Shown here piece by piece: positions 4,801 through 48,654 of a DNA stretch of 64,000 bases; within the stretch, counting starts at the first letter, position 1, and the number at the start of each line of letters is the position of its first letter. The notes beneath the pieces were generated by a model, which saw only the letters and a list, made by a program, of their open reading frames with translations, did no database searches and was not told the origin of the DNA. This stretch comes from a virus: positions 1 to 64,000 of the IMG/VR virus record IMGVR_UViG_3300045806_000017. The stretch is one strand, 5' to 3'. The translations under genes and the position numbers were made by a program.

Positions 4801-7800
4801 TACCAGTAGTTGTATTTCTGACAGTTACATCAATAAAGTCTTTGTTATTGAATACATAACCATCCCACTTATCTAGAGACTTATCATCTTGGTTTCTAGC
4901 TTTGTATTTATTAAATTCATGTTCCAGTTTATAGAACTGAGTATCAACTATGTTTCTAATGTGCTTGTTATCATACAGACCATAAGCCGCCCATTGAACT
5001 GCATGTACAAATTCATGAGCAAATACTTCTTGAGCAGACATTTGAAAAGGATCTAAATCCTTAGACATTGCTTGACCTAAGTTAATAGCTACTTTCTTTA
5101 ACTCAGCAGAATACTGCCCGTATGTGTATGTAGCTTTACTAAATAAGAGTAATTCAGTTTGTTCTACTACTGGAGCTATTACATGAGATACGAAGTTTCT
5201 TAAGAATGTGTTATGTGTCTTATCTGTACCTTTAGGTATAGCATCAAATTCAGATACTATATTATCTGCTGTAACATCTTTAATTAAGTCTGCTTTCTCG
5301 GTAAGTAAATCTTTAGCATTAGGTGTTGAACCAAAGGAATCAAAGTAATCTTGTATTTCTTTATTAATCATATCTTCTGTAACATTGTATTTTTTAGCCC
5401 AACCTCTAATTCTAATCGGTATAAGCTGATTTTTAGATTCACCTTCATCAGTTAAGTCATGTAATATTTCTTGAAAACTATTACGAGTATCTTCATCTAA
5501 ACCAAGATTATTATCTTCATTGGTCTGAGTTGTTGAAGGTTTTATTTCTTCTTTATTAGACTGAGCAGTAGTAACTTCTTTCAAACTATCCTTAGTTTTT
5601 TGATAAACATCTCTAATAGCTTGTCTTGCAGCTTCTTGTTTTCTTGAGGCTAAAGGTGCTTTACGTTGTCCGTAATATGTTTCTATATCTCTTGTTCCAA
5701 TACCTGCAAAATCTTTTGTAAGTATTGGTGTTTCTGTTTTAATAAACTTTGTTCCATTCCATGTAAACCATTGTTCATTACTTGTGTTCCAAACATATAA
5801 AGGCTTATTCATAGCTTTAGCTAGTTCTACTGCTGTACCAGTACCACCTTCAACAGTCTTATAGTCTGGTTTAATTTTAGCAATAGCAAAGATACTCTCA
5901 GCATTATTTACTTGATAAAAGTTTCTTACTTGTAAATTCTTTTGAATAATTTGATTTGCAGTATCTTCAGGTTTTATTGAATAATCTTTCTTTAGGAATT
6001 TTAAGATTTGTTGTCTTGCATATTCCATTTGAGTTTTAGTAAGAACTGTTGCTTTTACTTTAAGTTTTTCAAGTCTTGTACTTAATTTTTCATTTCCACT
6101 ATCTCTATAGTGCATGAAGTTTTTAACACCAAACTCTCTTCCTATAAGATCAAAATCAGTATCTGCTCCATAAGCTCCACCTGAATGATCTGTAAGTTCA
6201 GCCATAGAACTGAAATTTAATTCTTGTTTAGTAGGAGTAACTTCAATATCTGGAGCATACTCATCTGGAAATATATTTAATCTTGGATCAACTGAATCAA
6301 GTATTTCAGATGAACCATTAGAGTCTTGTCCACCATACTGCATAACTCCACCAACAGGAATATTATTCCATATTTGTTTTTGTCTTTGTATAGCTAAACG
6401 TCTAGTGTCTGATTTTAGTCTTTCAACAAATTCATCTAAATTATTATAGTGTGGAATTATTTCTGCATTATCTTTACTAACAGGAATGTAAAAACCTTGT
6501 CTATTAAATAAGCCAGTATCAGCTTTAATGAATGAAGTATTAAGTTCTTTAGCAATATCTGGATTAGCTTGCATATATTCTTGTACTCTTTCAAGATTAT
6601 CTACTGCACCTTGAAATACATCAAATGAATTTAAACTATCAATTAAAGAACTATTAAGTAATTTACTACCTTCAACTGCTTCTAATAAATTAAAGATAAA
6701 AGCATCATGTACAGCTAATCCTTTAAACTTAGACTTCATCATATCAATCATAACATTTGAATCTCTGTTATGAATATTAGCAATAGTTACACCAACACCT
6801 AATGAATTAATAATAAGACTTAAAGCATGAGCTGTAGTTGATTTAGGTAAATCTAATTCTTCAATATGAACTTCACCATCTTTATCAGTTACAGTATATT
6901 TAAGTTTACCTGTCTTAGAATTCCATCCTGTTTGAGTTCTATATGCTGCTGTATGATTTGAACTTCTTTCTGAGTTCCATAACTGTAAATCTTGTTCTAG
7001 TGACTCAGAATTTTTAGTAGGTGATCTAGGTTGAATCTTAATCAAGTCAGCAATAATCTTATCCATTTGTTCTGCTGAAGGTTCTTTACCCTCATTAGCT
7101 CTAAAATATTCTAATTGCTTTCTTGTTGGATGTAGATTATCTGGATGTAATTTAATATACTGTTCATATTGAAAACGTAACAATTCTTTTTTTAAACCAA
7201 GTTTAAATACTTCTCCTACCACAAAGTAAGCATCATTAAGTATTTTTCTATTTTCAATAGTATGCCCAAAATTATAGTTAATAGCATATTGTATGGATTC
7301 TCTAAATAATTCATTTACAGTACCAACTATAGAAGCATAATCTTTCTGAATTAAAGAAAACTCTAATAAATTATCTAGTGTAAGTTTAACTACAGAAGCT
7401 TTATTATCTTCTCCTCTTACAACTTTACTATCTACATACCGATTACCTTCTAATTTAGTTGTACCTAAAATAGTTTGTATCTGAGTTTTAAGAACTTCTA
7501 ATTTAGCTTCTTTTTCTTCTGGTTGTAAATTTGTATCTTTAAACAGTTTTTCTAGTTCATCATAGAAAGTAGCAATAACAGTATCACCAACAGAGTTAGC
7601 TAACTTGTCTGTAGATTTACCAAACATAGTGAGTAATAAGATTGGTTTAGCAAAGGTTCTTCCTGGTTTAGTTATTTTACCTTTAGCATCTATTAACTCA
7701 CCTACAAAGTGTTTTATAGCTCTTAGTTGTGCTGTATCTTCTTCTCTATCTAATGCTTCAGCAAATACTCTAGCTATCTGTTCATAGTTATCTTCATTGG

Positions 7801-10800
7801 TTAAATCCTTCTCTTTTATAGTATTCTTCCATGTAGCATAATCCATTGTTGGATCTTCAAATAATCCTGCTGCTGCAAGAACATCTTTCATTCTTTCAAA
7901 ATTATCAACACCAGCAAGTAACACTAAACCAATCAATACACCATTGGTAATACCATCAACTTCTCTACCTATATTAGTCTCAAATTCCTTTGTAGCTGAA
8001 TACATAGATAAAGCTACTAACCCATTAAGTGTATGAGCTTTCTCTTTACCTTTGTGAACTGCGTTAATAATAGTTCTTTGGTCAAACTCTTTACCTTCTT
8101 TTTGCTTATTAATTTCATCAATAGTTTTTTGATTAGCTTCAAGAATCTCTTGGAACTTAGGATTTATTTGTTCCTTGGTTAAAGACTTAGCTGCTACACC
8201 AAATGCTTCTAATACAGCTAATTTAAACTGTGTTACAGCAAATTCATCACTTGGTTTAATCTTCACAAAGTAGTTCTTAGGAGAAGATAAATTTCTTATC
8301 CATTTATTGTTTTGTGGATGACCTACACCAATGCCTCCAATACGTCCTTGATTCCAGAAAGTAGACATAAAGTATAATGGTTTAGAACCTTGCTCAGATA
8401 GCTCTAAAAGCTTGTCTAAGGCTTCTTTTTCCTTTTCATAAGATAATACCTTACCTCTATAAGATCTCTCCTTAGACTGCTGTTTTTGCTCTTGGAAATC
8501 TACTCCTAACTCCATTTCTGCTCTAGCATCTTCATTCATAGCAAGATACAGCTTCATTGTAGGAGTATCTAATGTATGTGGTGTTTGAACATACTTAGTT
8601 AAAGCATCTATACGTTCAGGAGTAATCTCCTGTGTAGTATGTAATCCAGTAGCTTTCTTACCTTTCTCTTTATTAAAACCAAGAGAAGCTAATACACTAG
8701 CTTTATTAGGTTTCTTGGTTCTAGGTAATTCTTTTTCATAAGCAGATTCAAACATAGAAGTAATATCTTTACTTCCTGCTTTAAGAGTATCCAACACTTG
8801 TTTTAAATTATATTCAATAACAGATTTCTTATCTTCAATATCAGAAGCTATTCTTACAAATACTACAGATTGATCTTGTAATTCACTTGGTTTAAGTTGT
8901 GTAGTTACTTTTGGATTAAGAACTTCGTTAAGTTTAAACCTATCAAAGGTAGAATTTTCTACAACAGAATATGTAACATACCCCATATTGTTTAAAGTAT
9001 TTAAAGCATGTAAACCAAGAGATAGTTTTAGTTTAGCTATTTCATTCTCTGGGTATGTTTTACTTGCAGTAAATTTCATAAGGTTAAATATGTTATTACC
9101 TAATCCTGTAGCTACCATTGCTCTTACTGAACCAAGTTCAGATAAAGCATTAGATATTTCATTCTGAGGGATAGTATTCTCATCCATTGATAAGATAAAT
9201 TGAACATCCTTTTCAAAATTAAATAAAGTATCATTACCTTTATTCATAAGCCAATCAATACTACCCATAAACATAGCAGATACTATATTAGGATCAAACT
9301 TACCGTTAGAAACATTTTGATTAGCTAAAACTATTAGAGGATCATCTTCAAAAGGTTTTTCTAAATATGATTTTTTAAATGCTTCTTGAAACTTAACTTC
9401 TTCTTTTTTAAGAGTTTCAAATGCTTTTAAACCATCCTTAGTATTAATTGTAAACTCGAGTAAATTAAATAAGTTTTGAAACAATCTAGGGTACTTACCA
9501 AACAAAGAATCTTTAACCTTATTAAATGAAAATATTTGAGATATAGGATTTGGTATAGTACGTTTTATAGGTTTAAGTGATAATACTCCTTTTTTTAACT
9601 TAGCTATATTAGCTAACTTAAATTCTTTAATTTCCTTTTGATACTCAGGAGTAAATTCTTGTTTAGTAGGTACTTCAAATTCAGTTTCTACATTTTCATT
9701 AATTATTTTTAAATAAGATTCTATAAGATTTGAAAGTAATGTATTTTCTTTAGGAGAGAATCCAAGTAAATTAGATACTAGAGATATAAATCTATCCCAT
9801 AATGATTTACTTCCAATACCTTCAATATCATTTAAAATTTTGTTTAGATGGTAATCAGTAAAACCATAAGTAATTATTTCATGTACATCTGTAACTACAC
9901 CATCATTAGAAATTCTATTAACATTAAAAGCATATCTTTTATTATCAATAGTCTTAACTATCCAGCCATCTTTATCTGCTATACTTTCTAATTTATCTAA
10001 TATAGTTCTAAGTTGTTTGTGTACTTCAGGGTTAAAGTCAATTATATTCTCAGTAACCGCGTGAAGTGTTTCATGAATTACTGTACCCATAACTCTTGTA
10101 AAAGCATTTTTATCTTGAGTATATGCTAAAGTTTCAGGAGCAATATGGATAGTATTATTTCCTGCTGTATATAATCCCCCAAATCCAGGATCTTCTTTAG
10201 ATGTATGTACAAGAAATTTAATATCTTTAGGTAATATCTTTAATAAATGTTTAGCAATTATCCCTAATCTATTACTGTTTTTACCTATAAAAAACAATAC
10301 CTGCTGTAAAGTAACATCTTTAGTAAGCAATAATTTTCGCAATGCTTGATATTTATCATTCTCGGTATATTGTACTTCTGTAAGCTCCTGTGGTTCGATT
10401 ACAGACGTTTTATCTTCTGAGGTAATAACTTCTTCAGGTTTAGATGTTTCGTTGCTTATAGAAGATTCTACTGCTGTTGACGTTGCTTCCTCTGTAGGTA
10501 CTCCCTTAGAGCCTTCTTGGCTTGTAGTTGTTGATGCTCTTTGCTTTTCTTCGTATCCATTTAATACTTCCTCATAATTTTCAATATATTTATACTCAAA
10601 TTCACCATCTTTAATAAGTTGTTGAATTTCATTAAATGTTCTTGTATCTGTTTTCTCAGCCCATTCTAATAAAGATACGATACGTTCTTTAGCAATTTGA
10701 TCTTCAAAATCTCCCTGTTCTTTATGTAACCTTTCAGTAACTATTTCAGAACCTTCAGCGGTATATGTAAGATTTGCGTAATTACCTTTATGAAATAAAT

Positions 10801-13800
10801 CATTTTGAATTTTATCAATTAACTCATTATTATCTTCAAATACAAAACCATGTCCTCTTAATCTCTCTGCCATTTCGTCTAATGTAAGTGATGGTACTTT
10901 AGATTTACTATTAACTTTTTTATACCATGGGTATCTACCTTTATTAGGAGCTTCATCAATAAATTCTGATACAGCAGATTCTTGTAATCCCCCTTCTCTA
11001 CCAATTACTTCTAAAAGACTAAGAGTCTTATTAAACTTGGTTTTACCCTTAGATTTTTTAACAGACTTTATTTGTTGTGTATTTACAGGAGATGGTATAT
11101 TAGTATTGTCTTGATTTACTATAGTTGAATCTAAGGCATTCTCATCAGTCTGAGAGGTACTTTTAGTAGTAGAAGTAATACCAAAATGAGTATTAACTTG
11201 ATTTTGGATATTAGTTACAGCATCAGTCATTATCTTTGCTTCAGAATTAACTTGTTCAGACAGCTTCTTTGTTCCAATAATACTCGTAAACTTTAGAGAA
11301 TCATTATCCGTAAAAGGATTTCCTCTTTTTTGATATTCTTGTAATTGTTCTGTATATTTAGTTTTATCTGCTACAGTTGTTGCATTAGCTAATTTATTAA
11401 ATAGATCTGCTCTACCTGAATCGTAAGCTACCCACTTAGCTAGTTTATCTACCTTGGCTTGAATAAATTCTTTATCAATATTATTTGATAATGCTAATTG
11501 AATTAAACCAAGATGTTCTTTATAACTAGGTAGCTTACCTCCACCTACTAATTTATCATTAGCTACTTCTTCGGTAGATTTTCCTTTTAAATATTTAGCT
11601 TCATACTCTTTTAATGCAGTAACTAATTCATTATTAGATTTAACAAACTCAGGTGATAGTTTACTTGTATCACCTTCAATCATTGTTGAACCAAATGTAG
11701 GTAATATCTTTCTGTGTATCTCTTCTAAAGTATCCTTTGGATCAATAGTAATAGTACCTTTATTAGTAACTAAACCATTGATAGTATTTAATGCTTGTTT
11801 AACTGTTTTCTCTGTAGCAGGAGTAATATCTACTTTATCTGAATATACTTTAGAGATAGTTTTAGTTAATGCTGATATAGCAGTATCTTTTTTAGATGTA
11901 TCTGTTTCTGAAGTAGTAGGTAAATAATTATTTATAGCTATTGAATCAAAATCATTACTAGCTAAAGTAATTGTAGATAATCCGTCAGGGCGATTAGCAA
12001 TAATTCTATGTTCACCTTTTGGAGTTATAATATGTTCTTTAACTGTAACATCTAGTGTAGAGTCACCTCTTTTTAAGGTTACTTTAGATCCTTTAGGATA
12101 CGCTAGATCATAGTATTTAGAATCTTCTTCTTTAGATGTAGTTGAAGACGGATTCTTCACTACTTCTATGTTAGAACTTAGTTCAGTAGGTAAATCTTTT
12201 ACCTGAGCAGACAATCTAAGTAAAGCTTCATCGAGGTCAACTCCTTTATCTTCTCTTATTATAGAAGAGAATGTTTCAGATGCTTTAGGTTCTAAGTTCT
12301 TAGTTTCAATACCAGTGGTAGCTAATACATAAGGATCATTAACTGAATCACTTTCTGCATATTCTTTTTGTTTAGCTGTAGAAATATCTTTAAGAATATT
12401 TAATGTATCTTTATCTTTAGTTCTACCAATATCATTAAACAATGAACCAGTATTAGGTGATGTAGCATCTGTTGTAGCTGTAATAATGCTGTCTTGAATA
12501 TCCTCTATTGTAGTATTAGGATCATTAATAACATCAGAAAATCCTGTTGGATTACCTTGGTTCATTTGTGCTACTACATGGTGTAGTGTAGTTTCAGCTA
12601 AAACAGACTTAGCTATAGAATTAAATTCTGGTGATTGTTCTCCATTTAATGCTTTACCAATAGCATTAGCCATTTGTTGTTTTTCAGCTAAAGTACCATT
12701 GTAAGGATAATCTTTAATACCTTGGTTTAATACAGATTCTGCTGTATCTGGAGTAGCATTAATGGCATCATTAGAATACCTATCAAGAATAGTCTTAGAA
12801 GGCTCTAAATCTGCCTCTGGTGGCACGATATTACTTTCAGTGGGTGTTTGTGTATCTGAGGATGTTTTATGAGCTTGTAGAGCATCATGTAACAATGTAG
12901 GTGTGTGCATACCTCCACCTAATAGACCACCAACAATAGCTCCTGAACCACCTGCTTGACCTACACCTTCCATTACATTTTCTTTACCTAAAGCAATGTT
13001 TGTAGCTACTTGTTCATTTACTGATTGAGGAAATTCTTCTACTAAACCTTCAGAAGTTACTGCTTTAAGAGCTTTAGTAAATGCAGAACCTTTAACTCTA
13101 TTTACGCCAACTAAAGCATCTGCTGCTGTAGCACCAAGTAATTTATTTGAACCAGCACCAATAAGACCTGTAATAGCACCTCCTATAATAGCTGGTGCTA
13201 TGTATTGCCTAGGATCTACATTAGCTTCTTCTGCTTGGTTTACAATAGAAGATGCTGCTTGAGTACCTTCAGTTAAACCTCCTATAGTTAATAACTGTTT
13301 TTGTACAGGAGCAGAACTAATATATTTAGTTGCTGCATCTTTACCTACTTGGGTAATTACACCATCAACAACTCCCCCAGAAGTTTTAGATGCAACTTTC
13401 ATAGCTATGTTATCTACAATCCTTCCTGTAACTCCAATAGGTACAGCTAATTGAGCTATGTTAGCAGGTAAATCATGTGTAAGTGTTGCTCTAGGATTCT
13501 CTACAAATGCCTGTACTGAATCCACAACATCAGAAGATAATGCCATAGCATTCTCATATACACCCTTTGGTTTATATCCTAATTCATCCCGTAATCTTTG
13601 GGTTTGGTTTGATCTGTATTCAGAATCCTGTCTTGACTTAGCTAAAGCATCAGATTGATATAGTGCATCAGTAGCAGCATCTAATCTATTTGGTTCATAT
13701 TTAAGATTGTTTAACGTGTCTTTTGCTTCATCCGATATAGGTAAAGCATCTATTAATGGTTTAGCATAATGAGTTCTATTTTGTAGAATATTTTGTAATT

Positions 13801-14641
13801 CGTAACCTGTACCAATATCACCAACTTTCTTAATAACATCACCTACATCTCCTCCAACAGAATTACCTATAGCTTGTATAGGAGCATTCAACGATGCAGA
13901 AACTAAACCACTAGTACCTGTAGCTATATTACTCAATACGGTAGGTGTTTTAGTTAAAAGAGTACCTGCAAAGTCTTTAGCTGTATCTATTAATCCACCA
14001 CCATCTTTGTTTATTTTAGCAAAGTTATATTGTGTGTTATATGCAGCATTTAACTCAGGAGTATTCATAGCATCAACAGCAGAGGTATTCTCATTAGAGA
14101 ATTTCATATCTCCTAAATGTCTACTAAACTCATCTAAATTATTTTTTTCATCTAAAGCAAAGTCTAATCCAGTTTTACCTTCATTAACTTGTTTAAGCTT
14201 ATCTGCTAATACTTGTTTAGCTTTATTACCCCTATCATATACATCTTGGTTTGTAGCTGGATTAAACCAACCATGAGACCATTCATTATCAATAGCATCT
14301 CTTTGTTTTTGTAGTCTAACAGCTACTTTAGGATTTGATTCATTACCATGATTAACCTCATAAGAGTTAAATGATTCACCAAAGTTATTACTCTTAAGTC
14401 TTACATCAATTGGTTTAATATTAGGGTCAAAAGCTTTATCTGCAATACTAGGATTAATCCTAACAGTATCAGCATCTAATGCTTCAACAGATCTATTCTT
14501 TAAATCTGCTGAACTAAAGCCTAAATTATCTCTTTTCTGAAATACCTTATCTAAAAGACTTATCTTCTTTTCTTGAACCAAATTTGTATTATCATCAAAA
14601 GAATCTTTTGTAAAAGTAGAACCACCAAACGAAGAAGACAT
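1838..14641 (-). CDS. giant virion protein with N4-type virion RNA polymerase, SLOG-like and HExxH domains
   Basis: This 4267-residue protein is the last gene of the leftward late block. The middle third carries the single-subunit RNA polymerase motifs: NQGRIGG with Arg2100, DGITNG with Asp2229 (motif A), Arg2328-x3-Lys2332 to Phe2340-Gly (motif B) and His2645-Asp2646-Ala (motif C). The order and spacing agree with N4 vRNAP, which travels in the virion and transcribes early genes. Residue 2340 is Phe where T7 RNAP Tyr639 and N4 Tyr678 sit. A SLOG/YpsA-like domain follows (SGGAYGADTD around 2820-2828; GIGTRD farther on). HExxH motifs lie at 1523-1527, 3209-3213 and 3656-3660. Gly/Ala-rich hydrophobic stretches in the first 600 residues and at the C-terminus suit membrane passage during ejection. 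The architecture is that of a polyvalent ejected protein. The RNAP call is firm; the accessory domains are motif-based. Confidence 0.88.
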   Translation of the reverse strand: MSSSFGGSTFTKDSFDDNTNLVQEKKISLLDKVFQKRDNLGFSSADLKNRSVEALDADTVRINPSIADKAFDPNIKPIDVRLKSNNFGESFNSYEVNHGNESNPKVAVRLQKQRDAIDNEWSHGWFNPATNQDVYDRGNKAKQVLADKLKQVNEGKTGLDFALDEKNNLDEFSRHLGDMKFSNENTSAVDAMNTPELNAAYNTQYNFAKINKDGGGLIDTAKDFAGTLLTKTPTVLSNIATGTSGLVSASLNAPIQAIGNSVGGDVGDVIKKVGDIGTGYELQNILQNRTHYAKPLIDALPISDEAKDTLNNLKYEPNRLDAATDALYQSDALAKSRQDSEYRSNQTQRLRDELGYKPKGVYENAMALSSDVVDSVQAFVENPRATLTHDLPANIAQLAVPIGVTGRIVDNIAMKVASKTSGGVVDGVITQVGKDAATKYISSAPVQKQLLTIGGLTEGTQAASSIVNQAEEANVDPRQYIAPAIIGGAITGLIGAGSNKLLGATAADALVGVNRVKGSAFTKALKAVTSEGLVEEFPQSVNEQVATNIALGKENVMEGVGQAGGSGAIVGGLLGGGMHTPTLLHDALQAHKTSSDTQTPTESNIVPPEADLEPSKTILDRYSNDAINATPDTAESVLNQGIKDYPYNGTLAEKQQMANAIGKALNGEQSPEFNSIAKSVLAETTLHHVVAQMNQGNPTGFSDVINDPNTTIEDIQDSIITATTDATSPNTGSLFNDIGRTKDKDTLNILKDISTAKQKEYAESDSVNDPYVLATTGIETKNLEPKASETFSSIIREDKGVDLDEALLRLSAQVKDLPTELSSNIEVVKNPSSTTSKEEDSKYYDLAYPKGSKVTLKRGDSTLDVTVKEHIITPKGEHRIIANRPDGLSTITLASNDFDSIAINNYLPTTSETDTSKKDTAISALTKTISKVYSDKVDITPATEKTVKQALNTINGLVTNKGTITIDPKDTLEEIHRKILPTFGSTMIEGDTSKLSPEFVKSNNELVTALKEYEAKYLKGKSTEEVANDKLVGGGKLPSYKEHLGLIQLALSNNIDKEFIQAKVDKLAKWVAYDSGRADLFNKLANATTVADKTKYTEQLQEYQKRGNPFTDNDSLKFTSIIGTKKLSEQVNSEAKIMTDAVTNIQNQVNTHFGITSTTKSTSQTDENALDSTIVNQDNTNIPSPVNTQQIKSVKKSKGKTKFNKTLSLLEVIGREGGLQESAVSEFIDEAPNKGRYPWYKKVNSKSKVPSLTLDEMAERLRGHGFVFEDNNELIDKIQNDLFHKGNYANLTYTAEGSEIVTERLHKEQGDFEDQIAKERIVSLLEWAEKTDTRTFNEIQQLIKDGEFEYKYIENYEEVLNGYEEKQRASTTTSQEGSKGVPTEEATSTAVESSISNETSKPEEVITSEDKTSVIEPQELTEVQYTENDKYQALRKLLLTKDVTLQQVLFFIGKNSNRLGIIAKHLLKILPKDIKFLVHTSKEDPGFGGLYTAGNNTIHIAPETLAYTQDKNAFTRVMGTVIHETLHAVTENIIDFNPEVHKQLRTILDKLESIADKDGWIVKTIDNKRYAFNVNRISNDGVVTDVHEIITYGFTDYHLNKILNDIEGIGSKSLWDRFISLVSNLLGFSPKENTLLSNLIESYLKIINENVETEFEVPTKQEFTPEYQKEIKEFKLANIAKLKKGVLSLKPIKRTIPNPISQIFSFNKVKDSLFGKYPRLFQNLFNLLEFTINTKDGLKAFETLKKEEVKFQEAFKKSYLEKPFEDDPLIVLANQNVSNGKFDPNIVSAMFMGSIDWLMNKGNDTLFNFEKDVQFILSMDENTIPQNEISNALSELGSVRAMVATGLGNNIFNLMKFTASKTYPENEIAKLKLSLGLHALNTLNNMGYVTYSVVENSTFDRFKLNEVLNPKVTTQLKPSELQDQSVVFVRIASDIEDKKSVIEYNLKQVLDTLKAGSKDITSMFESAYEKELPRTKKPNKASVLASLGFNKEKGKKATGLHTTQEITPERIDALTKYVQTPHTLDTPTMKLYLAMNEDARAEMELGVDFQEQKQQSKERSYRGKVLSYEKEKEALDKLLELSEQGSKPLYFMSTFWNQGRIGGIGVGHPQNNKWIRNLSSPKNYFVKIKPSDEFAVTQFKLAVLEAFGVAAKSLTKEQINPKFQEILEANQKTIDEINKQKEGKEFDQRTIINAVHKGKEKAHTLNGLVALSMYSATKEFETNIGREVDGITNGVLIGLVLLAGVDNFERMKDVLAAAGLFEDPTMDYATWKNTIKEKDLTNEDNYEQIARVFAEALDREEDTAQLRAIKHFVGELIDAKGKITKPGRTFAKPILLLTMFGKSTDKLANSVGDTVIATFYDELEKLFKDTNLQPEEKEAKLEVLKTQIQTILGTTKLEGNRYVDSKVVRGEDNKASVVKLTLDNLLEFSLIQKDYASIVGTVNELFRESIQYAINYNFGHTIENRKILNDAYFVVGEVFKLGLKKELLRFQYEQYIKLHPDNLHPTRKQLEYFRANEGKEPSAEQMDKIIADLIKIQPRSPTKNSESLEQDLQLWNSERSSNHTAAYRTQTGWNSKTGKLKYTVTDKDGEVHIEELDLPKSTTAHALSLIINSLGVGVTIANIHNRDSNVMIDMMKSKFKGLAVHDAFIFNLLEAVEGSKLLNSSLIDSLNSFDVFQGAVDNLERVQEYMQANPDIAKELNTSFIKADTGLFNRQGFYIPVSKDNAEIIPHYNNLDEFVERLKSDTRRLAIQRQKQIWNNIPVGGVMQYGGQDSNGSSEILDSVDPRLNIFPDEYAPDIEVTPTKQELNFSSMAELTDHSGGAYGADTDFDLIGREFGVKNFMHYRDSGNEKLSTRLEKLKVKATVLTKTQMEYARQQILKFLKKDYSIKPEDTANQIIQKNLQVRNFYQVNNAESIFAIAKIKPDYKTVEGGTGTAVELAKAMNKPLYVWNTSNEQWFTWNGTKFIKTETPILTKDFAGIGTRDIETYYGQRKAPLASRKQEAARQAIRDVYQKTKDSLKEVTTAQSNKEEIKPSTTQTNEDNNLGLDEDTRNSFQEILHDLTDEGESKNQLIPIRIRGWAKKYNVTEDMINKEIQDYFDSFGSTPNAKDLLTEKADLIKDVTADNIVSEFDAIPKGTDKTHNTFLRNFVSHVIAPVVEQTELLLFSKATYTYGQYSAELKKVAINLGQAMSKDLDPFQMSAQEVFAHEFVHAVQWAAYGLYDNKHIRNIVDTQFYKLEHEFNKYKARNQDDKSLDKWDGYVFNNKDFIDVTVRNTTTGKPMVVKYNRGVQEFLAFGSTNKEFRELLTKLKSRQLKVTEVSASTISDEVREATWIEVISNVLKKVLDSFIKVAKGKDSLEPLIMFDKNVRLILAANGKAGYLNTTVPVVDRGDAFISEKAKDVGLKTLKFVAKGRGSKIQFVDALGKYADTLPAIGGFETNKVIRETIKLIKNENIRNLLLDQVNDIKGTTKANKPLENAILNQGTIEGERNTATAKDVQEYQKKVGVLNDLQDTAFKNVVLSGELFSVRDSYPTNFIELLEDSKALNQEIKSLEVQIHKLVNDTKNLASMMVLGKYTETGLGKHNAALVAKQGRNIPQDKYQKELDLVTKLSRLYAIGLQDVNHVNEIVKLLKDKPQAMNEVMNVHRENVKKAHEEGHALTIHDGEIPTSYNPFRSIYLGTKEDEKFLVEHWGATIIGNLERDPNDPLTTLGILYLITEKTQQDYDSKAMAFVSRNSESSNFHSGFTMTDRFKAAENREKAKLKDDGTKSTNNIKQKNTSNVSRVAIFNQQGKVIRYEYTLDKATKDKYLKPTINAFKDLATQKNAITYINEATKLNNQLVDKLYNYWKDLGHKARHDMIWVGSEGKYKDLWNMIPTETKAYFETKFGTEKGFYMAEEELRTVFGYRKQTITNWIQPVLEDDLKRHIGNHIYYMAKRLGFNLATITAMESMWIEGISFAKDTIVVKSGVVSAANESSNFMTAKLKGTPIPFYYQSKIRAMKAEQQFRRDSDALLSHLSNAYGNPDYITEAIDHEMNKLKSAISNNPMSFLHEEGLASTIAEENAHKDKHETKLYSKTERARNLFDKLPKVVKDTLKVATISEGTKVYTLMNEIAQMGDITSRFAFIEWEAEKAKRNGTKFDYESAIDKAKFLFVQYHSVTNDKVQWGNDIGLIMFSKFGTKAIGVLAHMFGNHAGRLLALGILEDVLGASDWIWNTGMNKFAIPTSSLFAAIDASPIANALITPPAYIPKKLFSSLGILPVVSGL

Positions 14642-41937: not shown

Positions 41938-41975
41938 GTAGAGCATTCTATGTAGTAGATACAATTCATGTGTCT
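41938..41975 (+). promoter_or_regulatory. early promoter-like hairpin E1 and 5' stem-loop
   Basis: TAGA-GCAT-TCTA at 41939-41950 followed by TGTAGTAG, similar to the other early elements although with a 4-base stem and 4-base loop. A second stem (AGATAC 41957-41962, GTGTCT 41970-41975) would form near the start of the RNA. The first early gene starts at 42022. Weakest of the set with E4. Confidence 0.5.
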
Positions 41976-42021
41976 CACCATGTGTCATGAACATGGTGTT
42001 AATCCTATTAGGAGTATTACA

Positions 42022-42345
42022 ATGAGTGCGTTTACTAAAGAAGTATTGGTTGCTGTGTCTCAATCTATTGCATTATTACCTCAAGTAACTACAGCAGCAG
42101 GATTGGTTATCAGTAAAGCATCATCAGCAACTGTCAATGGCTTTAGTGCTATTGATGCACTATGTGCTTACGGTGCAGACTATGCAGATGACATACGACA
42201 AGATCAGTTAGCTCTGTTAGAGTTGAAACAATCTTATCGTGAAATCGTTAAAGCTGATGCTAAAACTGCTGTTGTATCTGGTGATAAAGCTTCAATCATT
42301 GCTGCATATAAAGCTATGCAGACTGACTTCGAGTCTATCGACTAA
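42022..42345 (+). CDS. early hypothetical protein (107 aa)
   Basis: The start is the ATG at 42022 with TAGGAG seven bases before it; the open frame extends to 41968 but that part is in a hairpin and lacks a ribosome site. The product is Ala/Ser/Val-rich and helical, with no known motif. It is the first gene of the early region and closes with a strong terminator. Early single-gene units like this often encode host take-over proteins, which is only inference here. Confidence 0.65.
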   Translation: MSAFTKEVLVAVSQSIALLPQVTTAAGLVISKASSATVNGFSAIDALCAYGADYADDIRQDQLALLELKQSYREIVKADAKTAVVSGDKASIIAAYKAMQTDFESID

Positions 42346-42352
42346 GCTTATT

Positions 42353-42385
42353 GACTCATACTTCGGTATGAGTCTTTAGTTTTTT
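42353..42385 (+). terminator. intrinsic terminator after first early gene
   Basis: GACTCATAC (42353-42361), TTCG loop, GTATGAGTC (42366-42374), then TTTAGTTTTTT. A 9-bp stem with the stable TTCG tetraloop and a T tract. It ends the E1 unit just before promoter-like element E2. Confidence 0.85.
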
Positions 42386-42388
42386 ACT

Positions 42389-42423
42389 TTAAAGCATTTA
42401 ATGTAATAGACAATAATGTCTAT
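42389..42423 (+). promoter_or_regulatory. early promoter-like hairpin E2 and 5' stem-loop
   Basis: TTAAA-GCA-TTTAA (42389-42401) is a perfect 5-bp stem with a 3-base loop, followed by TGTAATAG. With N4 vRNAP geometry (loop centre at -11) the start is 42406, exactly the first base of the stem-loop ATAGACA-ATAA-TGTCTAT. The next gene starts at 42445. Confidence 0.65.
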
Positions 42424-42444
42424 CTTTTGCAAAAGGTGATTATC

Positions 42445-42573
42445 ATGACTTACAAAGTAAATACCGATGGAACAATCGAAGTCATCAACTATGATGAAGA
42501 ACCAAACTCATTAGAATTAGATAATGAGTTTCTTAATACTTGGAATGAGGAGAACTCAGATGAAATGTTATAA
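42445..42573 (+). CDS. small acidic early protein (42 aa)
   Basis: ATG at 42445 with AAGGTGA five bases before; too short for most gene finders but well placed behind promoter-like element E2 and overlapping the next gene by 14 bases. Acidic (Glu/Asp/Asn-rich) with no known motif. Possibly a regulator acting on a host protein, by analogy with other early phage peptides. Confidence 0.6.
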   Translation: MTYKVNTDGTIEVINYDEEPNSLELDNEFLNTWNEENSDEML

Positions 42574-42736
42574 CTGTGATTGTGTAAAGTCTGTTCTTGG
42601 TTTCTCACAAACTAGAAACGTCTGTCTCATCCAAGATCCTGAGGATCTCTGGTGTGATGAATGTTTAGAGGAAAATCAACAACAGTTCGTCAATCAGCAG
42701 GATGCTGACTTTGATGAATGGTGTCAAACAATATAA
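42560..42736 (+). CDS. small cysteine-rich early protein (58 aa)
   Basis: I start it at the ATG 42560 with GAGGAG in front; the longer frame starts inside the preceding gene. The sequence has CYNCDCVK near the start and later WCDECLEE, two Cys pairs that suit a zinc ribbon. Acidic C-terminus. Coupled to the 42-residue gene. Family not recognised; DNA- or protein-binding via a zinc ribbon is plausible. Confidence 0.65.
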   Translation: MKCYNCDCVKSVLGFSQTRNVCLIQDPEDLWCDECLEENQQQFVNQQDADFDEWCQTI

Positions 42737-42741
42737 CAAAT

Positions 42742-42761
42742 AGCTACTCTTCGGAGTAGCT
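42742..42761 (+). terminator. hairpin after the second early unit
   Basis: AGCTACTC-TTCG-GAGTAGCT, an 8-bp stem with TTCG loop six bases behind the stop of the cysteine-rich gene. No strong T tract follows, so termination efficiency is uncertain. Confidence 0.5.
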
Positions 42762-43313
42762 TATGTTCTTTAGTTAAAGCTACACCAACATCAACACCAG
42801 TAAGATAGTCTAGTTATAGACACTAAGAATAGATAGTCTAATCATTTATAGCTCATATCTATTCATTTAAACCAAGAATCATAATCATCTTGGTGGTATC
42901 TAACTTAATGTCGAAAAGTGAACCTTGTGTTTAACTGTCTGAGACAGTTCATAAGGTACATGGTATGTATTTTATGTGTTGAGGATAGTTGAACCAAGGT
43001 GAACTTGAGACACAGTGGAAAGTCTTAGTCACATATAATGGAGTGGTATGGGAACATTGGTTAATGTGAACCATATCATATTTTGATAGATAAAATCAAT
43101 AGGTAGTAATATTTATTTTTACTTAATACTACATGTAGTAGGTAAGATATAGGATATGTCTATATATAATTTAAATTGGAATAAATTAGTATTAATATCG
43201 ATTCGATACTATTCCTAAACAATTACTAAACACTAGAGTAATGTTATAACATAACACTAACAATGTGGACTATCGTCCACTCTACTACTACTCAATACTT
43301 CTATACAAGTATT

Positions 43314-43355
43314 TAAAAGCATTTTATGTAATAGAAATTATACACTTCGTATAAT
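43314..43355 (+). promoter_or_regulatory. early promoter-like hairpin E3 and 5' stem-loop
   Basis: TAAAA-GCA-TTTTA (43314-43326) followed by TGTAATAG; predicted start near 43331. The RNA stem-loop ATTATAC-ACTTC-GTATAAT occupies 43337-43355 and the gene with its GGAG site starts at 43372. Confidence 0.65.
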
Positions 43356-43371
43356 ACTTTGGAGAACTATA

Positions 43372-43686
43372 ATGTCACAAATTAAATTAGGTCAATATGT
43401 TACCTATAAACAAAATATATATCTTGTTGTTGATATTCGTTATGAGAAATTGCTTATAATGAACAAAGACAACAAAGTACAAGTCAATAGAACTTCTATT
43501 GAAGTAACTAATCTACGTCCTGCAAAGGAAATAGATGGTTATCTTGTAACAGGTAAAGGAATGATTATATCTCTCACTTCTCATAAAGAAATGAAATGGG
43601 ATAATAATCACGGTATTAGAAAAGCTCTATTAGCTAAGTATGCTAATAGTAATTCTGATACCTTTAAAGCATTGATGACTGGTTAA
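43372..43686 (+). CDS. early hypothetical protein (104 aa)
   Basis: Ribosome site TTGGAGAA eight bases before the ATG. The N-terminal half is beta-like (LGQYVTYKQNIYLVVDIRY), perhaps an SH3-like barrel, the C-terminal half basic with repeated Lys. No family recognised. Single gene of an early unit between E3 and a 19-bp hairpin. Confidence 0.65.
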   Translation: MSQIKLGQYVTYKQNIYLVVDIRYEKLLIMNKDNKVQVNRTSIEVTNLRPAKEIDGYLVTGKGMIISLTSHKEMKWDNNHGIRKALLAKYANSNSDTFKALMTG

Positions 43687-43726
43687 ACATTTACTACTAC
43701 TACTTCGGTAGTAGTAGTAAATGTTT
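43685..43726 (+). terminator. 19-bp perfect hairpin ending the third early unit
   Basis: Arms 43685-43703 and 43708-43726 pair perfectly around a TTCG loop; the arms contain ACTACTACTAC. The stem begins inside the stop codon of the gene. No T tract follows, so it may be a termination, stabilisation or processing element rather than a classical terminator. Confidence 0.7.
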
Positions 43727-43788
43727 CACTCAAAGATAGTCCCTTTATTCCACTTGTGTCAATCACCTCATAGCTCAAGCAAAAGAAC

Positions 43789-43847
43789 TTGAAGCTTCAA
43801 TGTATTAATTAGCGAAAGAGAACGTAGTCGTTAAGACGGAGTTCTCT
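43789..43847 (+). promoter_or_regulatory. early promoter-like hairpin E4 and 5' stem-loop
   Basis: TTGAAGCTTCAA (43789-43800) followed by TGTA matches the E2 stem with a compensatory change (TTAAA/TTTAA becomes TTGAA/TTCAA) but a 2-base loop in place of GCA. The RNA would carry AGAGAAC (43817) pairing with GTTCTCT (43841-43847) around an inner GTC/GAC stem. The next gene starts at 43870 with AGGAG. Confidence 0.45.
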
Positions 43848-43869
43848 GTAGCGTTAAATAGGAGTATTT

Positions 43870-43992
43870 ATGTATAAATTTAATGAAAACCTCATTATCC
43901 AATGTAACAAACCTAAGTTTCCTAAAGAAGGTTGGTTACTGTTTTCAATTTTAATCATTGGTCTTATTTGGAAATACCTCTCACACGCATGA
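43870..43992 (+). CDS. small early membrane protein (40 aa)
   Basis: ATG with TAGGAG upstream, six bases apart. A charged N-terminus, then WLLFSILIIGLIWKYL, one membrane helix. No family. Single-pass tiny early membrane proteins in phages often interfere with superinfection or host membrane functions; that role is only a guess here. Confidence 0.65.
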   Translation: MYKFNENLIIQCNKPKFPKEGWLLFSILIIGLIWKYLSHA

Positions 43993-44025
43993 GGATTCGT
44001 CTTAAGCCACATTAGGAGTTGACCC

Positions 44026-44190
44026 ATGTCAATGTATAAACGTGAATTAACTGAACGTGAAGAAGAGCGTAGACTCTTCTTCCTTCAACAAAAAGAGATT
44101 CGTGAAGCTTATGAAGCTGAACAGAAAGCTCTACAACAAGCAAATGCAAATGCTTACACTTATGCTCTTAAGCAGTGTGGTTTAATCTAA
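44026..44190 (+). CDS. small early helical protein (54 aa)
   Basis: ATG with TAGGAG eight bases before. Strongly charged helix (Glu/Arg-rich, then Gln/Ala repeats AYEAEQKALQQANANA), ending KQCGLI. It follows the small membrane gene in the same early unit. No family recognised. Confidence 0.65.
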   Translation: MSMYKRELTEREEERRLFFLQQKEIREAYEAEQKALQQANANAYTYALKQCGLI

Positions 44191-44196
44191 TTATGA

Positions 44197-44228
44197 ACCA
44201 GCAGTTATTAACTTAACTGTTGGTTTTG
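44197..44228 (+). terminator. hairpin terminator after the fourth early unit
   Basis: ACCAGCAGTTA (44197-44207) pairs with TAACTGTTGGT (44214-44224), 11 bp with one G-T pair, followed by a short T run. It starts six bases behind the stop at 44190, ahead of promoter-like E5. Confidence 0.6.
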
Positions 44229-44235
44229 AAAGATT

Positions 44236-44268
44236 TAAAAGCATTTTATGTGGTAGGAATAATCCTAC
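44236..44268 (+). promoter_or_regulatory. early promoter-like hairpin E5 and 5' stem-loop
   Basis: TAAAA-GCA-TTTTA (44236-44248) followed by TGTGGTAG. With loop centre 44242 at -11 the start is 44253, again exactly the first base of the stem-loop GTAGGA-ATAA-TCCTAC (44253-44268). The gene starts at 44293. Confidence 0.65.
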
Positions 44269-44292
44269 AATTCTAACTAAACGGTGAATATC

Positions 44293-44652
44293 ATGGCATA
44301 TCAAGAACAAGCTCCTGCAACAGCTAACAATTCAGTTGCAAAACAAGCTTTCATTAACTCTGAAGCTGGTGATCAATTAGGCTTCTTTAGTCTATCTAAT
44401 CACATCAATCCATCACAATTTCAACGTGTTTTAGTTGCGTTGAACGATCCTGAAAAACAAGTTAAATTAAATGTTGTTGAAGGCAAAAACAAAAACGGTA
44501 AAGCGTTTGCAACAGTGAGAAATCCTTCAGATGTTGTACTAGGTATCCTATCTGGATACTCTGCATCAACAATTCTTGCAATTGGTGTTGGAACTGCTAT
44601 ATTTACTGATGCTACACCTATCGAAGATGTAACAGACATCTTGAACTTCTAA
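44293..44652 (+). CDS. early hypothetical protein (119 aa)
   Basis: Start is the ATG at 44293 with GGTGA five bases before, the same arrangement as at 42445; the open frame extends to a GTG at 44284 inside the ribosome site. Mixed alpha/beta with an Ala/Gly/Ile-rich stretch (LGILSGYSASTILAIGVGTA) near the C-terminus. No known motif. Sole gene of its early unit. Confidence 0.65.
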   Translation: MAYQEQAPATANNSVAKQAFINSEAGDQLGFFSLSNHINPSQFQRVLVALNDPEKQVKLNVVEGKNKNGKAFATVRNPSDVVLGILSGYSASTILAIGVGTAIFTDATPIEDVTDILNF

Positions 44653-44658
44653 AATATT

Positions 44659-44690
44659 GGACTCCTTAATTGGAGTCCTTTTGTTTTTCT
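44659..44690 (+). terminator. intrinsic terminator after the fifth early unit
   Basis: GGACTCC (44659-44665), TTAATT loop, GGAGTCC (44672-44678), then TTTTGTTTTTC. GC-rich 7-bp stem with a T tract, seven bases behind the stop. Confidence 0.85.
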
Positions 44691-44696
44691 TTACAC

Positions 44697-44715
44697 AAAC
44701 GGACTTCGTCCGTTT
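44697..44715 (+). other. 8-bp hairpin with three-base loop
   Basis: AAACGGAC-TTC-GTCCGTTT lies just behind the terminator at 44659. A perfect 8-bp stem and triloop; might be a second terminator or a protein site. No T tract. Confidence 0.55.
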
Positions 44716-44796
44716 ATGCCCTCAGCCTAATTATTGTGTTAATTCACTTGTGTTAGATAGTCCTCTTTACCTCTTAATTTGTTGTTTTACTTGGTT

Positions 44797-44834
44797 TAAA
44801 AGCATTTTCTGTGTTGGTAAAACAATCCTGTTTT
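44797..44834 (+). promoter_or_regulatory. early promoter-like hairpin E6 and 5' stem-loop
   Basis: TTTAAAAGCATTTTCTGTG; the stem is AAAA-GCA-TTTT (44798-44808) with the outer pair lost. The RNA stem-loop AAAACA-ATCC-TGTTTT is at 44819-44834. The gene starts at 44859 with GAGGTGT. This unit leads without a visible terminator into the NADAR gene. Confidence 0.6.
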
Positions 44835-44858
44835 CTCTTAACTTTTATGAGGTGTGTT

Positions 44859-45781: not shown

Positions 45782-46180
45782 ATGCTAACAAATGATGTAA
45801 TCCATGATGTATCAGAATCAGTAACTGATTCTGATTATGTATATGCTCTTATTAAAGAGTTAAAAGCTGCCTTAACACCTATAGCAGTAGGTATTGCTGC
45901 ACCTCAGATAGGAATATTAAAGAGAGTAATACTTTGTAAGATTAATGGAATGTGGATACCTATGATTAATCCTACTTGGATTGCTAAAGGTATTGATAAG
46001 AAACAATCTAAAGAAGGATGTTTATCATTTCCAGATAAGGTAGTTAAAAAACAAAGATACTATCGTATTTGTGTAACTTATCTTGATGAGTTATTACAAC
46101 CACAAGAGATAAGATTACTTGGTTTAGCTTCTTATATAGTTCAACATGAATGCGATCATCTCGATGGAATAACAATCTAG
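45782..46180 (+). CDS. def: peptide deformylase
   Basis: 132 residues with the three deformylase motifs: G37IAAPQIG, E78GCLS and H122ECDH126, the last two supplying the metal-binding Cys80, His122, His126 and catalytic Glu123. Deformylases remove the formyl group from new proteins. Phage versions, often shorter than bacterial ones, are common and probably help fold or stabilise the many proteins made in infection. A ribosome site is weak; the ATG sits two bases behind an AGATAGTC copy. The RNAPII subunit gene follows. Confidence 0.9.
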   Translation: MLTNDVIHDVSESVTDSDYVYALIKELKAALTPIAVGIAAPQIGILKRVILCKINGMWIPMINPTWIAKGIDKKQSKEGCLSFPDKVVKKQRYYRICVTYLDELLQPQEIRLLGLASYIVQHECDHLDGITI

Positions 46181-46190
46181 GAGATTGAGT

Positions 46191-47102
46191 ATGTTAGATA
46201 GATTAGAGCAAATTACTAATGAAGAAATGTATTCTAAAAAGAATATCAGAAGACTTGTCAGGGAAGACATTGAACGTAATCTTGATGGTAAGATTACTGT
46301 GTGTAAACAATTACTTGCAGACTTCTTGAGTAAAGAATATCTCTATTCAAGAGGTGCAAGGATAACTCATTTATGTGATCATTTGTATAATGGTTACATA
46401 TCAGGTGATGAGATAGTCATGGATGTATTAATAACTTGTCTTGGTTCAGAATCTCAAACAATTCAAGCTATATGTGGTGCTATATATCCATCCTTGAAAT
46501 ATGAAGAAGACATTGATGGTGTCAAGATGGTAGCTGATATATTGTTTGTTCTGTGTGAATCAGATTTGTATGACATCTATCACAATGCACAGAAAGAACT
46601 CTGTATTAGAAGTGTATACAAGCTTGAACCAATAACACTACAAGCTATTAATAGAGCTAAATTCTTGCCTCCTATGTTATGTAAACCAGACAAAGTTAGA
46701 TATAACGATGACTGCGGTTTCATTACATTCAAAGAACATTGTGTTCTGAAAAGACACAATCATCATAATAACTCAATATCTCTTGATGTATTAAACATCC
46801 AAAATGCTATTGAGTTATCTTTAGATCCATTCGTATTAGAGTGGGATAAAGAATTCAAGATGAAAGATGAATATAAAGCTAAAACTGTATTTCAGTTAAA
46901 AGAAATACAGGATCAGTTTGAATTAGCTAAAGCTGAAACGTATTCTTTATATAGTGAATTACCAAACAAGTTCTATCTACTTCATCGTTATGATAGTAGA
47001 GGTAGATTATATTGTTCTGGGTATTCCATATCATATCAAAGTAGTGAGTATGACAAAGCAGTGCTTAACATTGCTAAGAAAGAATTTGTTGAGGTGGACT
47101 AA
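46191..47102 (+). CDS. T7-like RNA polymerase RNAPII, subunit 1
   Basis: 303 residues starting at ATG 46191 (AGGAG seven bases before; the TTG at 46185 is in the ribosome site). It covers the N-terminal and upper part of the T7-like fold and ends just after the DxxGR motif: HRYDSRGRLYCSGYSISYQS at 265-284, compared with T7 DWRGRVYAVSMFNPQG. N4 RNAPII is likewise encoded as two proteins (gp15 and gp16). It pairs with the protein at 47650-48654 to transcribe middle genes, by analogy. Separated from it by two short ORFs. Confidence 0.82.
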   Translation: MLDRLEQITNEEMYSKKNIRRLVREDIERNLDGKITVCKQLLADFLSKEYLYSRGARITHLCDHLYNGYISGDEIVMDVLITCLGSESQTIQAICGAIYPSLKYEEDIDGVKMVADILFVLCESDLYDIYHNAQKELCIRSVYKLEPITLQAINRAKFLPPMLCKPDKVRYNDDCGFITFKEHCVLKRHNHHNNSISLDVLNIQNAIELSLDPFVLEWDKEFKMKDEYKAKTVFQLKEIQDQFELAKAETYSLYSELPNKFYLLHRYDSRGRLYCSGYSISYQSSEYDKAVLNIAKKEFVEVD

Positions 47103-47284: not shown

Positions 47285-47662
47285 ATGTGCGAACAACTTT
47301 CAACATTAAGCCAAGAACAAATGGTTATAATATACCTCCTTGGATTCAAAACAGGTTCACAAGTATTAGGTGAAGCTACAGAAGATAGTGATCATGATTA
47401 TGTAATGCTTCAAAGTGATTATGATACTAACTTCAACTTTCCTTATTCTAAGTATGGAGATGTGTTTGGTACATCAAGTGTTAAACAATGGTTTAACGGT
47501 GATTGTATTAATATACTCATTGCTGAAACACAGACACATTTTAATGCGTGGGTATATGCTACAGAAACATACCAAACACTTATTTCTAAACCAGTAAACA
47601 AAGAACTCAGAGTTAAACTGTTCTCAGCTTTAAGAGAGGTATATTTACTATGCAATTCGTAA
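47285..47662 (+). CDS. nucleotidyltransferase-like protein between RNAP subunits (125 aa)
   Basis: Start set at the ATG 47285; the frame opens at a GTG three codons earlier. It has the MNT/pol-beta signature GSQVLGEATEDSDHDYVML, a Gly-Ser pair followed by Asp-x-Asp which binds two metals. The rest is helical. Such domains transfer a nucleoside monophosphate to RNA, proteins or antibiotics. The gene overlaps the second RNAP subunit by 13 bases. A target cannot be told from sequence. Confidence 0.68.
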   Translation: MCEQLSTLSQEQMVIIYLLGFKTGSQVLGEATEDSDHDYVMLQSDYDTNFNFPYSKYGDVFGTSSVKQWFNGDCINILIAETQTHFNAWVYATETYQTLISKPVNKELRVKLFSALREVYLLCNS

Positions 47663-48654
47663 AACCAATAGACTATTTGCGTACAGACATTGCCAGTCAA
47701 TTTGGCTTAGATAAATTGACTTGGTATGAGAGAATAGAGTTTGTACATGACAACGAGAATGTATTAGAAGATGGTATTGGTTTAGCTAAAAAACCTCTTC
47801 TTTATATTAAAGCTGTAAATGCTTACAGAGAAGTACAAGCAGGTAAACCAACTAACTTTATAATGGGTTTAGATGCTAGTTCATCGTGTGTACAAATCAT
47901 GGGATTATTAATAGGATGTGAAAAATCTTTGATTCAAACTAATATGATTGATACTGGTAAAGTTCAGGATGTATATTCAAACACTACAAAGGAAATGAAT
48001 GTACATCTTAATAATGAAATACAGGTAGAAAGGGATAGAGTTAAATTAGCGTTGATGACTTCGCTATATGGCTCTAAAATGAATCCAATAATGCTCTTTG
48101 GTGAGAGCACACCTGAATTAACTCAATTCTATGCAGCTAGAGAAACACTTATTCCTGGTTGTATGGAAGTCATGGAGGACTTGTTGAGTGCTTGGAATCC
48201 GCATACTATAAGCTATCAGTGGACATTACCCGATCAGCATGTAGCAAGAGTAATGGTTACAGGTCCAGAAAATACATCTCTTAGAATTAGAGATATTCAT
48301 GGTACTAAATCTAGTTTTACTTACGAGTATAAGAAGATAAATGTAACATCGGCTTACTCAACTCCTATATGTGCTAATGTCATTCAAAGTTTGGATGCTT
48401 ACTTATGTAGAGAGTTAATTAGAAGATGTTATAAATCTGGATTCAACATCCTTACAGTTCATGATTGCTTTTTCTGTAATCCAAACCATGTACATCAAAT
48501 GAGGCAACATTACTTAGACATTTGTATTGAGTTATATAAGTCTAATTACTTATCTAACATCATCTCAGAACTTCTAGGTAGAAAAGTAATTTATAGACAA
48601 TATGACACGACATTAGAAGGTAAAATGAGAGACGCTGAATACTTTATTTCATAG
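47650..48654 (+). CDS. T7-like RNA polymerase RNAPII, subunit 2
   Basis: 334 residues with motif A LDASSSCVQ (Asp75), motif B R128-x3-K132 to Y140GSK and motif C TVHDCFF (His271, Asp272), equal in spacing to T7 Asp537, Arg627, Lys631, Tyr639, His811 and Asp812. It thus has the whole catalytic palm and fingers, while the DxxGR loop is in subunit 1. Unlike the virion polymerase it keeps Tyr at the sugar-discriminating place. Followed by an intrinsic terminator at 48661. Confidence 0.85.
   Translation: MQFVKPIDYLRTDIASQFGLDKLTWYERIEFVHDNENVLEDGIGLAKKPLLYIKAVNAYREVQAGKPTNFIMGLDASSSCVQIMGLLIGCEKSLIQTNMIDTGKVQDVYSNTTKEMNVHLNNEIQVERDRVKLALMTSLYGSKMNPIMLFGESTPELTQFYAARETLIPGCMEVMEDLLSAWNPHTISYQWTLPDQHVARVMVTGPENTSLRIRDIHGTKSSFTYEYKKINVTSAYSTPICANVIQSLDAYLCRELIRRCYKSGFNILTVHDCFFCNPNHVHQMRQHYLDICIELYKSNYLSNIISELLGRKVIYRQYDTTLEGKMRDAEYFIS

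Follow-up and report, generated by a model that had tools for sequence, protein, structure and literature searches.

Putative sequence-read early promoters and 5'-terminal RNA hairpins in an N4-like phage

We analysed the early transcription signals of a 64,000-nucleotide stretch of viral DNA (positions 1 to 64,000 of the 71,974-base record IMGVR_UViG_3300045806_000017; hereafter the window), which comes from an N4-like phage of the Schitoviridae type. Recognition of a DNA hairpin by a polymerase has its textbook example in the virion RNA polymerase (vRNAP) of phage N4. In the window, five copies of a 21-base element precede early genes and are very probably early vRNAP promoters, the polymerase being proposed from their context and the +1 position being predicted. 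With some reserve, we favour a reading in which vRNAP would recognise these promoters by their sequence, the DNA hairpin having been lost or relaxed and a hairpin at the 5' end of the transcript having been kept. An earlier note on this DNA had described the elements as hairpin promoters with compensatory stems. Its assignment to vRNAP is supported by their location, restriction to the early region, predicted start spacing, shared initiator and 5' RNA hairpin; the compensatory stems do not survive the absence of covariation, the many broken stems, the near-zero stability and the stemless sister lineages described below.

Five copies of one element in the early region

When a weight matrix built from relatives of the phage alone (contigs L012, L002 and L214) was scored on the window, five sites were found, all on the + strand, at 25.9-33.8 bits; the next-best site in the window scored 14.2 bits, and the top score in 60 first-order Markov sequences was 19.0. 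The five sites are copies of a single motif that runs from -17 to +4, with the G of a central GCA at 41943, 42394, 43319, 44241 and 44802:

41938..41958, + strand, early promoter element 1, predicted +1 at 41955 (27.6 bits; counterparts at L012 1745, L002 1593 and L214 4593)
42389..42409, + strand, early promoter element 2, predicted +1 at 42406 (30.2 bits)
43314..43334, + strand, early promoter element 3, predicted +1 at 43331 (33.8 bits)
44236..44256, + strand, early promoter element 4, predicted +1 at 44253 (31.1 bits)
44797..44817, + strand, early promoter element 5, predicted +1 at 44814, before the cluster leading to RNAP1 and RNAP2 (25.9 bits)

Five of the six elements that the earlier note had listed are these sites, its coordinates being their -17 positions, and its observation that each precedes an early gene holds for them, the predicted starts lying ~39-68 nt upstream of the apparent gene starts. 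The sixth, at 43789..43800 (+, TTGAAGCTTCAA), has no match to the motif and was rejected as a chance palindrome.

Together with the copies in the three relatives there are 28 elements in four genomes (5 in the window, 7 in L012, which is the same contig as L001, 10 in L002 and 6 in L214), and their consensus is TAAAAGCATTTTATGTARTRG. All 28 copies have C-11, A-10, T-9, T-8 and TGT at -4 to -2, and almost all have G-12 and G+4; when the central C is numbered -11, the predicted initiator is (R/T)TRG at +1. The motif is confined to the five early + strand sites upstream of RNAP1 and RNAP2 and is absent elsewhere in the genome, and a scan of 2.9 million viral contigs with the 21-base consensus returned matches in three contigs only, all of this group.

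The proposed reader of the elements is also encoded in the window:

1838..14641, - strand, vRNAP of 4,267 amino acids (aa) (phrog_2206, E 7.2e-212)

Its catalytic residues aligned with N4 D559, K670, D951, R424, K437 and R440 are all kept. A sequence search of the PDB with the whole protein gave no RNA polymerase match, the PHROG profile being decisive instead. The residues through which N4 vRNAP contacts its promoter (K114, R119, W129, D901 and R904) could not be aligned, even among phages of the hairpin type, and therefore have no vote on whether a hairpin is read. A vRNAP alignment likewise offered no stretch conserved enough for finding related loci. Reference N4-like phages have vRNAPs of 2,842-3,820 aa (PMC10654107), so that of the window is longer, and its polymerase core lies unusually deep in the protein (approximately residues 1650-2780).

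Pairing before and after the predicted start

N4 vRNAP promoters have G/C-containing stems of 5-7 base pairs (bp) with a C-G closing pair, a template GNA loop and a template G at -8 (PMC4496689). The window elements resemble N4 promoters P1-P3 in their early-region position, their predicted start distance, the T7-like vRNAP proposed to read them and the purine (G) at template position -11, opposite the invariant non-template C. They differ in that an A/T palindrome is only partly kept and no 5-7 bp stem stays paired through sequence change, that the template loop is TGC with a mostly A-T closing pair, that T-8 on the non-template strand in 28/28 copies puts an A at template -8, and that the invariant TGT at -4 to -2 falls outside the stem. 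Conservation is moreover lopsided, since the T at -9 and -8 never changes and the partners of these bases vary.

Counted outward from the GCA loop, 5 or more bp can form in 13 of the 28 elements and 4 or more in 16, with 2 or fewer in the remaining 12. The earlier note held that the stems differ yet stay paired, and this is not borne out when 3' halves are exchanged between elements: 108 of 140 pairs were observed against 105.6±2.1 after exchange (P 0.18), and with only the 13 unique stems the figures are 41 of 65 against 42.0 (P 0.80). No covariation appeared with a 4-nt loop register (P 0.71), nor in a test of folding energy on the template strand from -22 to -1 that allowed any register (-0.79 versus -0.77 exchanged, P 0.42). 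The same energy test was positive for phage pVa5 (-3.7 versus -1.6, P 0.0) and for L022 (-5.2 versus -1.9, P 0.04), where the control sites, like those of N4, were known or partly chosen as hairpins; in a less biased comparison, L022 sites chosen by loop and start alone were perfectly paired in 4/4 cases. Predicted hairpin stability is -0.2 to 0 kcal/mol in the window and -1.1 to -7.1 in N4. As for the individual stem variants that had been cited, TTGAA/TTCAA belongs to the spurious 43789 site, and TAGA/TCTA (41938) needs a 4-nt loop to pair, giving 1 bp with a 3-nt loop, its counterparts in the relatives (GAAGA-GCA-TTTAA and TAACA-GCA-TTTAA) being unpaired; TTAAA/TTTAA versus TAAAA/TTTTA is the sole genuine double change. 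Judged from these comparisons, the stem is probably not the feature that is recognised in the lineage of the window.

Several early promoters were likewise assigned from sequence in the N4-like phages LIT1 and LUZ7, where they are hairpins of 4-5 nt with a 3-nt loop (PMC3715699); the LIT1 candidates have C[TAC]G, and the window elements depart from them in the hairpin. Promoters of the T7 family, to which vRNAP also belongs as an enzyme, are contiguous from -17 to +6 (PMC4496689), and the window motif is similar in length and contiguity, a likeness of layout only with no match in sequence. The literature searched gave no mapped vRNAP start sites for N4-like phages beyond N4 itself.

Compensatory change is found past the start. 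In most transcripts predicted from the 28 elements, positions +1 to +26 contain a hairpin; the mean is -4.3 kcal/mol, as compared with -1.75 when stretches are drawn at random from the same regions and -1.64±0.31 after exchange of 3' arms (lowest of 500: -2.5). Because this energy collapses on arm exchange, genuine compensatory change sits here, in the RNA or in the DNA past the start. The structures predicted in the window, with their minimum free energies (MFE), are:

41955..41978, + strand, 5'-terminal RNA hairpin of transcript 1 (MFE -6.3)
42406..42423, + strand, 5'-terminal RNA hairpin of transcript 2, AUAGACA-AUAA-UGUCUAU (MFE -5.5)
43337..43355, + strand, 5' RNA hairpin of transcript 3 (MFE -4.2)
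44253..44268, + strand, 5'-terminal RNA hairpin of transcript 4, GUAGGA-AUAA-UCCUAC (MFE -7.7)
44816..44837, + strand, 5' RNA hairpin of transcript 5 (MFE -2.7)

N4 itself shares this arrangement, as by its known start rule a hairpin directly at +1 follows both P1 (GGACA-UGU-UGUCC) and P2 (GGAUG..CAUCC); for P1 the genomic sequence was used, from which the oligonucleotide in PMC12633501 differs downstream of the hairpin. Among related phages, 47 GNA-loop hairpins at 33 loci have a downstream fold of -4.24 versus -2.39±0.28 after exchange, and the effect is smaller behind hairpins with other loops (-3.16 versus -2.31±0.21). That element register and +1 hairpin are common to N4 and the hairpin-type phages is the best evidence that the window elements are vRNAP promoters. 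A start 11 nt past the loop centre would agree with the initiator and with an RNA hairpin in register with that of N4. We found no mention of the +1 RNA hairpin in the N4-like phage literature searched, the classical N4 papers on promoter hairpins and SSB template recycling (SSB, single-stranded DNA-binding protein) lying outside its scope.

Sister lineages and rival explanations

In a tree of RNAP2 the window groups with L012, then with L013 and then with L014 (support 0.94, 0.998 and 0.99), and this group nests in a clade of 18 tips, of which L018, L019, L020, L022 and L083 have hairpin candidates. L013 has four early elements of the form TNC-TTTTATGTA-NTRG and L014 two of the form GCC-CTTYARGTA-ATGGG; their stems have 0 bp in 6/6 cases, and they show matching cores, the same predicted start distance and a foldable stretch downstream. 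A single-copy pattern for L013-type elements matched 20 stretches, nearly all of them isolated single matches, and was not used as evidence. Hairpins with a template GNA loop show strand enrichment in the early regions of 80 related loci (TCC 52 versus GGA 7; TTC 59 versus GAA 28, some of the TTC loops being terminators), which makes the hairpin the general state, and its absence in the window group therefore looks derived. The idea of a new promoter class is plausible, although not for the reason originally offered, an AT-rich hairpin, because the hairpin seems lost or relaxed and not replaced. As a separate observation, some other N4-like contigs have promoter-type hairpins with 4-nt loops (L083 1014 and 7541; L020 5718 and 6151), of the form C[TAAC]G or C[TGGC]G (template GNNA) and followed by another hairpin near the expected start; they are candidate vRNAP promoter hairpins of a tetraloop type.

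We envisage that injected vRNAP would enter with the DNA, bind -17 to +4 as a contiguous sequence and initiate at R/T-T-R-G (+1), the hairpin ancestral to its group having been lost, or relaxed into an A/T palindrome that is retained in part of the copies. The nascent RNA would fold as it emerges into a 5'-terminal hairpin whose sequence changes freely; this hairpin probably aids departure of the RNA from the template, shields the 5' end from decay, or both, and the short units would often end in intrinsic terminators. Aid in displacement is plausible because the part of the T7 enzyme that separates RNA from template is missing from N4 vRNAP, which displaces its transcript by means of host SSB (PMC4496689). 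Whether this lineage turned the hairpin promoter of an injected polymerase into a linear, sequence-read one, with a 5' RNA hairpin that is widespread in Schitoviridae still under selection, we regard as evenly balanced. If the proposal is right, the early switch would be uncoupled from supercoil-driven hairpin extrusion, and the RNA hairpin would be a working part of vRNAP transcription and, being common to N4 P1 and P2, a candidate for how a vRNAP without the T7 separation part sheds its transcript. A nested lineage that keeps register and start but not the hairpin would also show a T7-like enzyme shifting between hairpin and linear recognition.

An alternative to sequence reading is that these are true N4-type hairpin promoters, in which AT-rich stems with a GCA (template TGC) loop are extruded by gyrase supercoiling and then held by host SSB, mismatches being tolerated. 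Related phages do use hairpins, and the perfect 5-bp stems, like the wider set with at least 4 bp, have the loop centre at -11 with a template G; we nevertheless judge this unlikely, if worth keeping in mind, given the lack of covariation, a stability of approximately 0 kcal/mol, the dozen copies with hardly any stem, the departure from the N4 rules on closing pair, GNA loop and -8G (PMC4496689) and the stemless sister lineages. The inverted repeat at +1 might instead act as DNA, its supercoil extrusion opening the start in place of the lost -11 hairpin. Its covariation is indeed also seen with DNA parameters (-2.4 versus -0.82±0.18 exchanged), but 11 of the 164 predicted pairs are G-U, better tolerated in RNA than in DNA, which hints that the structure acts as RNA, and phages that keep the -11 hairpin show the same downstream structure; a role as DNA is accordingly improbable.

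Slightly less probable still is that the elements are middle promoters of RNAPII (RNAP1 plus RNAP2) that happen to sit in the early region. RNAPII is encoded, and a contiguous motif of ~21 bases would suit any T7-like polymerase, but no copy precedes the genes downstream of RNAP2 (48.9-64 kb), where middle promoters would be needed, and the elements agree with the vRNAP promoters of N4 and other phages in register, initiator and 5' RNA hairpin. Host sigma-70-type promoters, which AT-rich sites 39-68 nt upstream of gene starts might suggest, are very improbable: the motif is contiguous from -17 to +4 with no -35/-10 layout, and sigma-70-like sites occur in the region at chance level (23 found, 22.5 expected).

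Several points weigh against sequence-read promoters with a selected RNA hairpin. The 13 copies with a 5-bp palindrome have it centred on the N4 loop position with template -11G, and the one double change (T-A for A-T at -16/-6) is compatible with a stem. Because the elements are related to each other, the covariation test has limited power, and the three N4 promoters moved in the same direction in the energy test without reaching significance (-5.2 versus -3.0, P 0.125). The +1 hairpin of N4 P3 is weak (-1.2). Finally, the sister-lineage evidence consists of six elements (L013 plus L014), and the derived loss also rests on one gene tree.

Early gene units and neighbouring features

The early units are short, and several end in terminators, terminator-like sites numbering 9 against 1.5 expected:

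42022..42345, + strand, early gene of unit 1 (open reading frame (ORF) with apparent ATG at 42022 and AGGAG upstream)
42353..42374, + strand, intrinsic terminator of unit 1
42742..42761, + strand, terminator-like hairpin after unit 2
43372..43686, + strand, early gene of unit 3 (ORF)
44293..44652, + strand, early gene of unit 4 (ORF)
44659..44678, + strand, intrinsic terminator of unit 4

Whole units, comprising promoter, RNA hairpin and gene, are gained or lost among the relatives, and a genome has between 5 and 10 copies of the element. At 43789-43865 of the window, for example, L001 shares the stretch ttagcgaaagagaacg...gttctct near 43789 and then continues with a real element and a gene (L001 3991), both of which the window lacks.

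Between units 2 and 3 lies a noncoding stretch (42870-43130, +) whose folding is far above that of shuffled sequences (z -5.8), with a core hairpin of ~95 nt at 42916-43010. Its counterpart in L214 (5814-6041) shares 89% identity, and on visual inspection a number of the differences in the long stem seem to compensate for each other (AACTGTC/GATAGTT versus ACTTACC/GGTGAGT). At the corresponding point of its gene order (2720-2990), L013 carries a long hairpin of equal strength, with no sequence similarity to the window stretch. An Rfam scan of the early region gave no match at the gathering threshold and only chance-level matches at a lax one. The stretch is possibly an early structured noncoding RNA.

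The motif AGATAGTCY recurs on the + strand in gaps of the early region (41713, 42803, 42831, 43734, 44755 and 45772). Six of its seven matches in the window lie at 41.7-45.8 kb, with 1.9 expected in all, and it is also present in L012, L002, L214 and L013; it might serve as a middle promoter or mark a site of processing or pausing.

Downstream of the early units are the two subunits of the second polymerase:

46185..47102, + strand, RNAP1, N4 gp15-like (phrog_2166, E 6.8e-60)
47650..48654, + strand, RNAP2, N4 gp16-like (phrog_2051, E 5.5e-97)

The + strand also encodes an RNA ligase, a ribonucleotide reductase and a DNA polymerase. With vRNAP, RNAP1, RNAP2 and an N4-like DNA polymerase the phage agrees with Schitoviridae in its polymerase genes. 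No close DNA relatives were found among named phages, and RNAP2 is at most ~41% identical to the named phages listed, which therefore places the phage in an uncharacterised lineage of Schitoviridae-type phages. A peptide deformylase gene (phrog_2890; 45782-46180, +) stands among the early genes and adjoins RNAP1.

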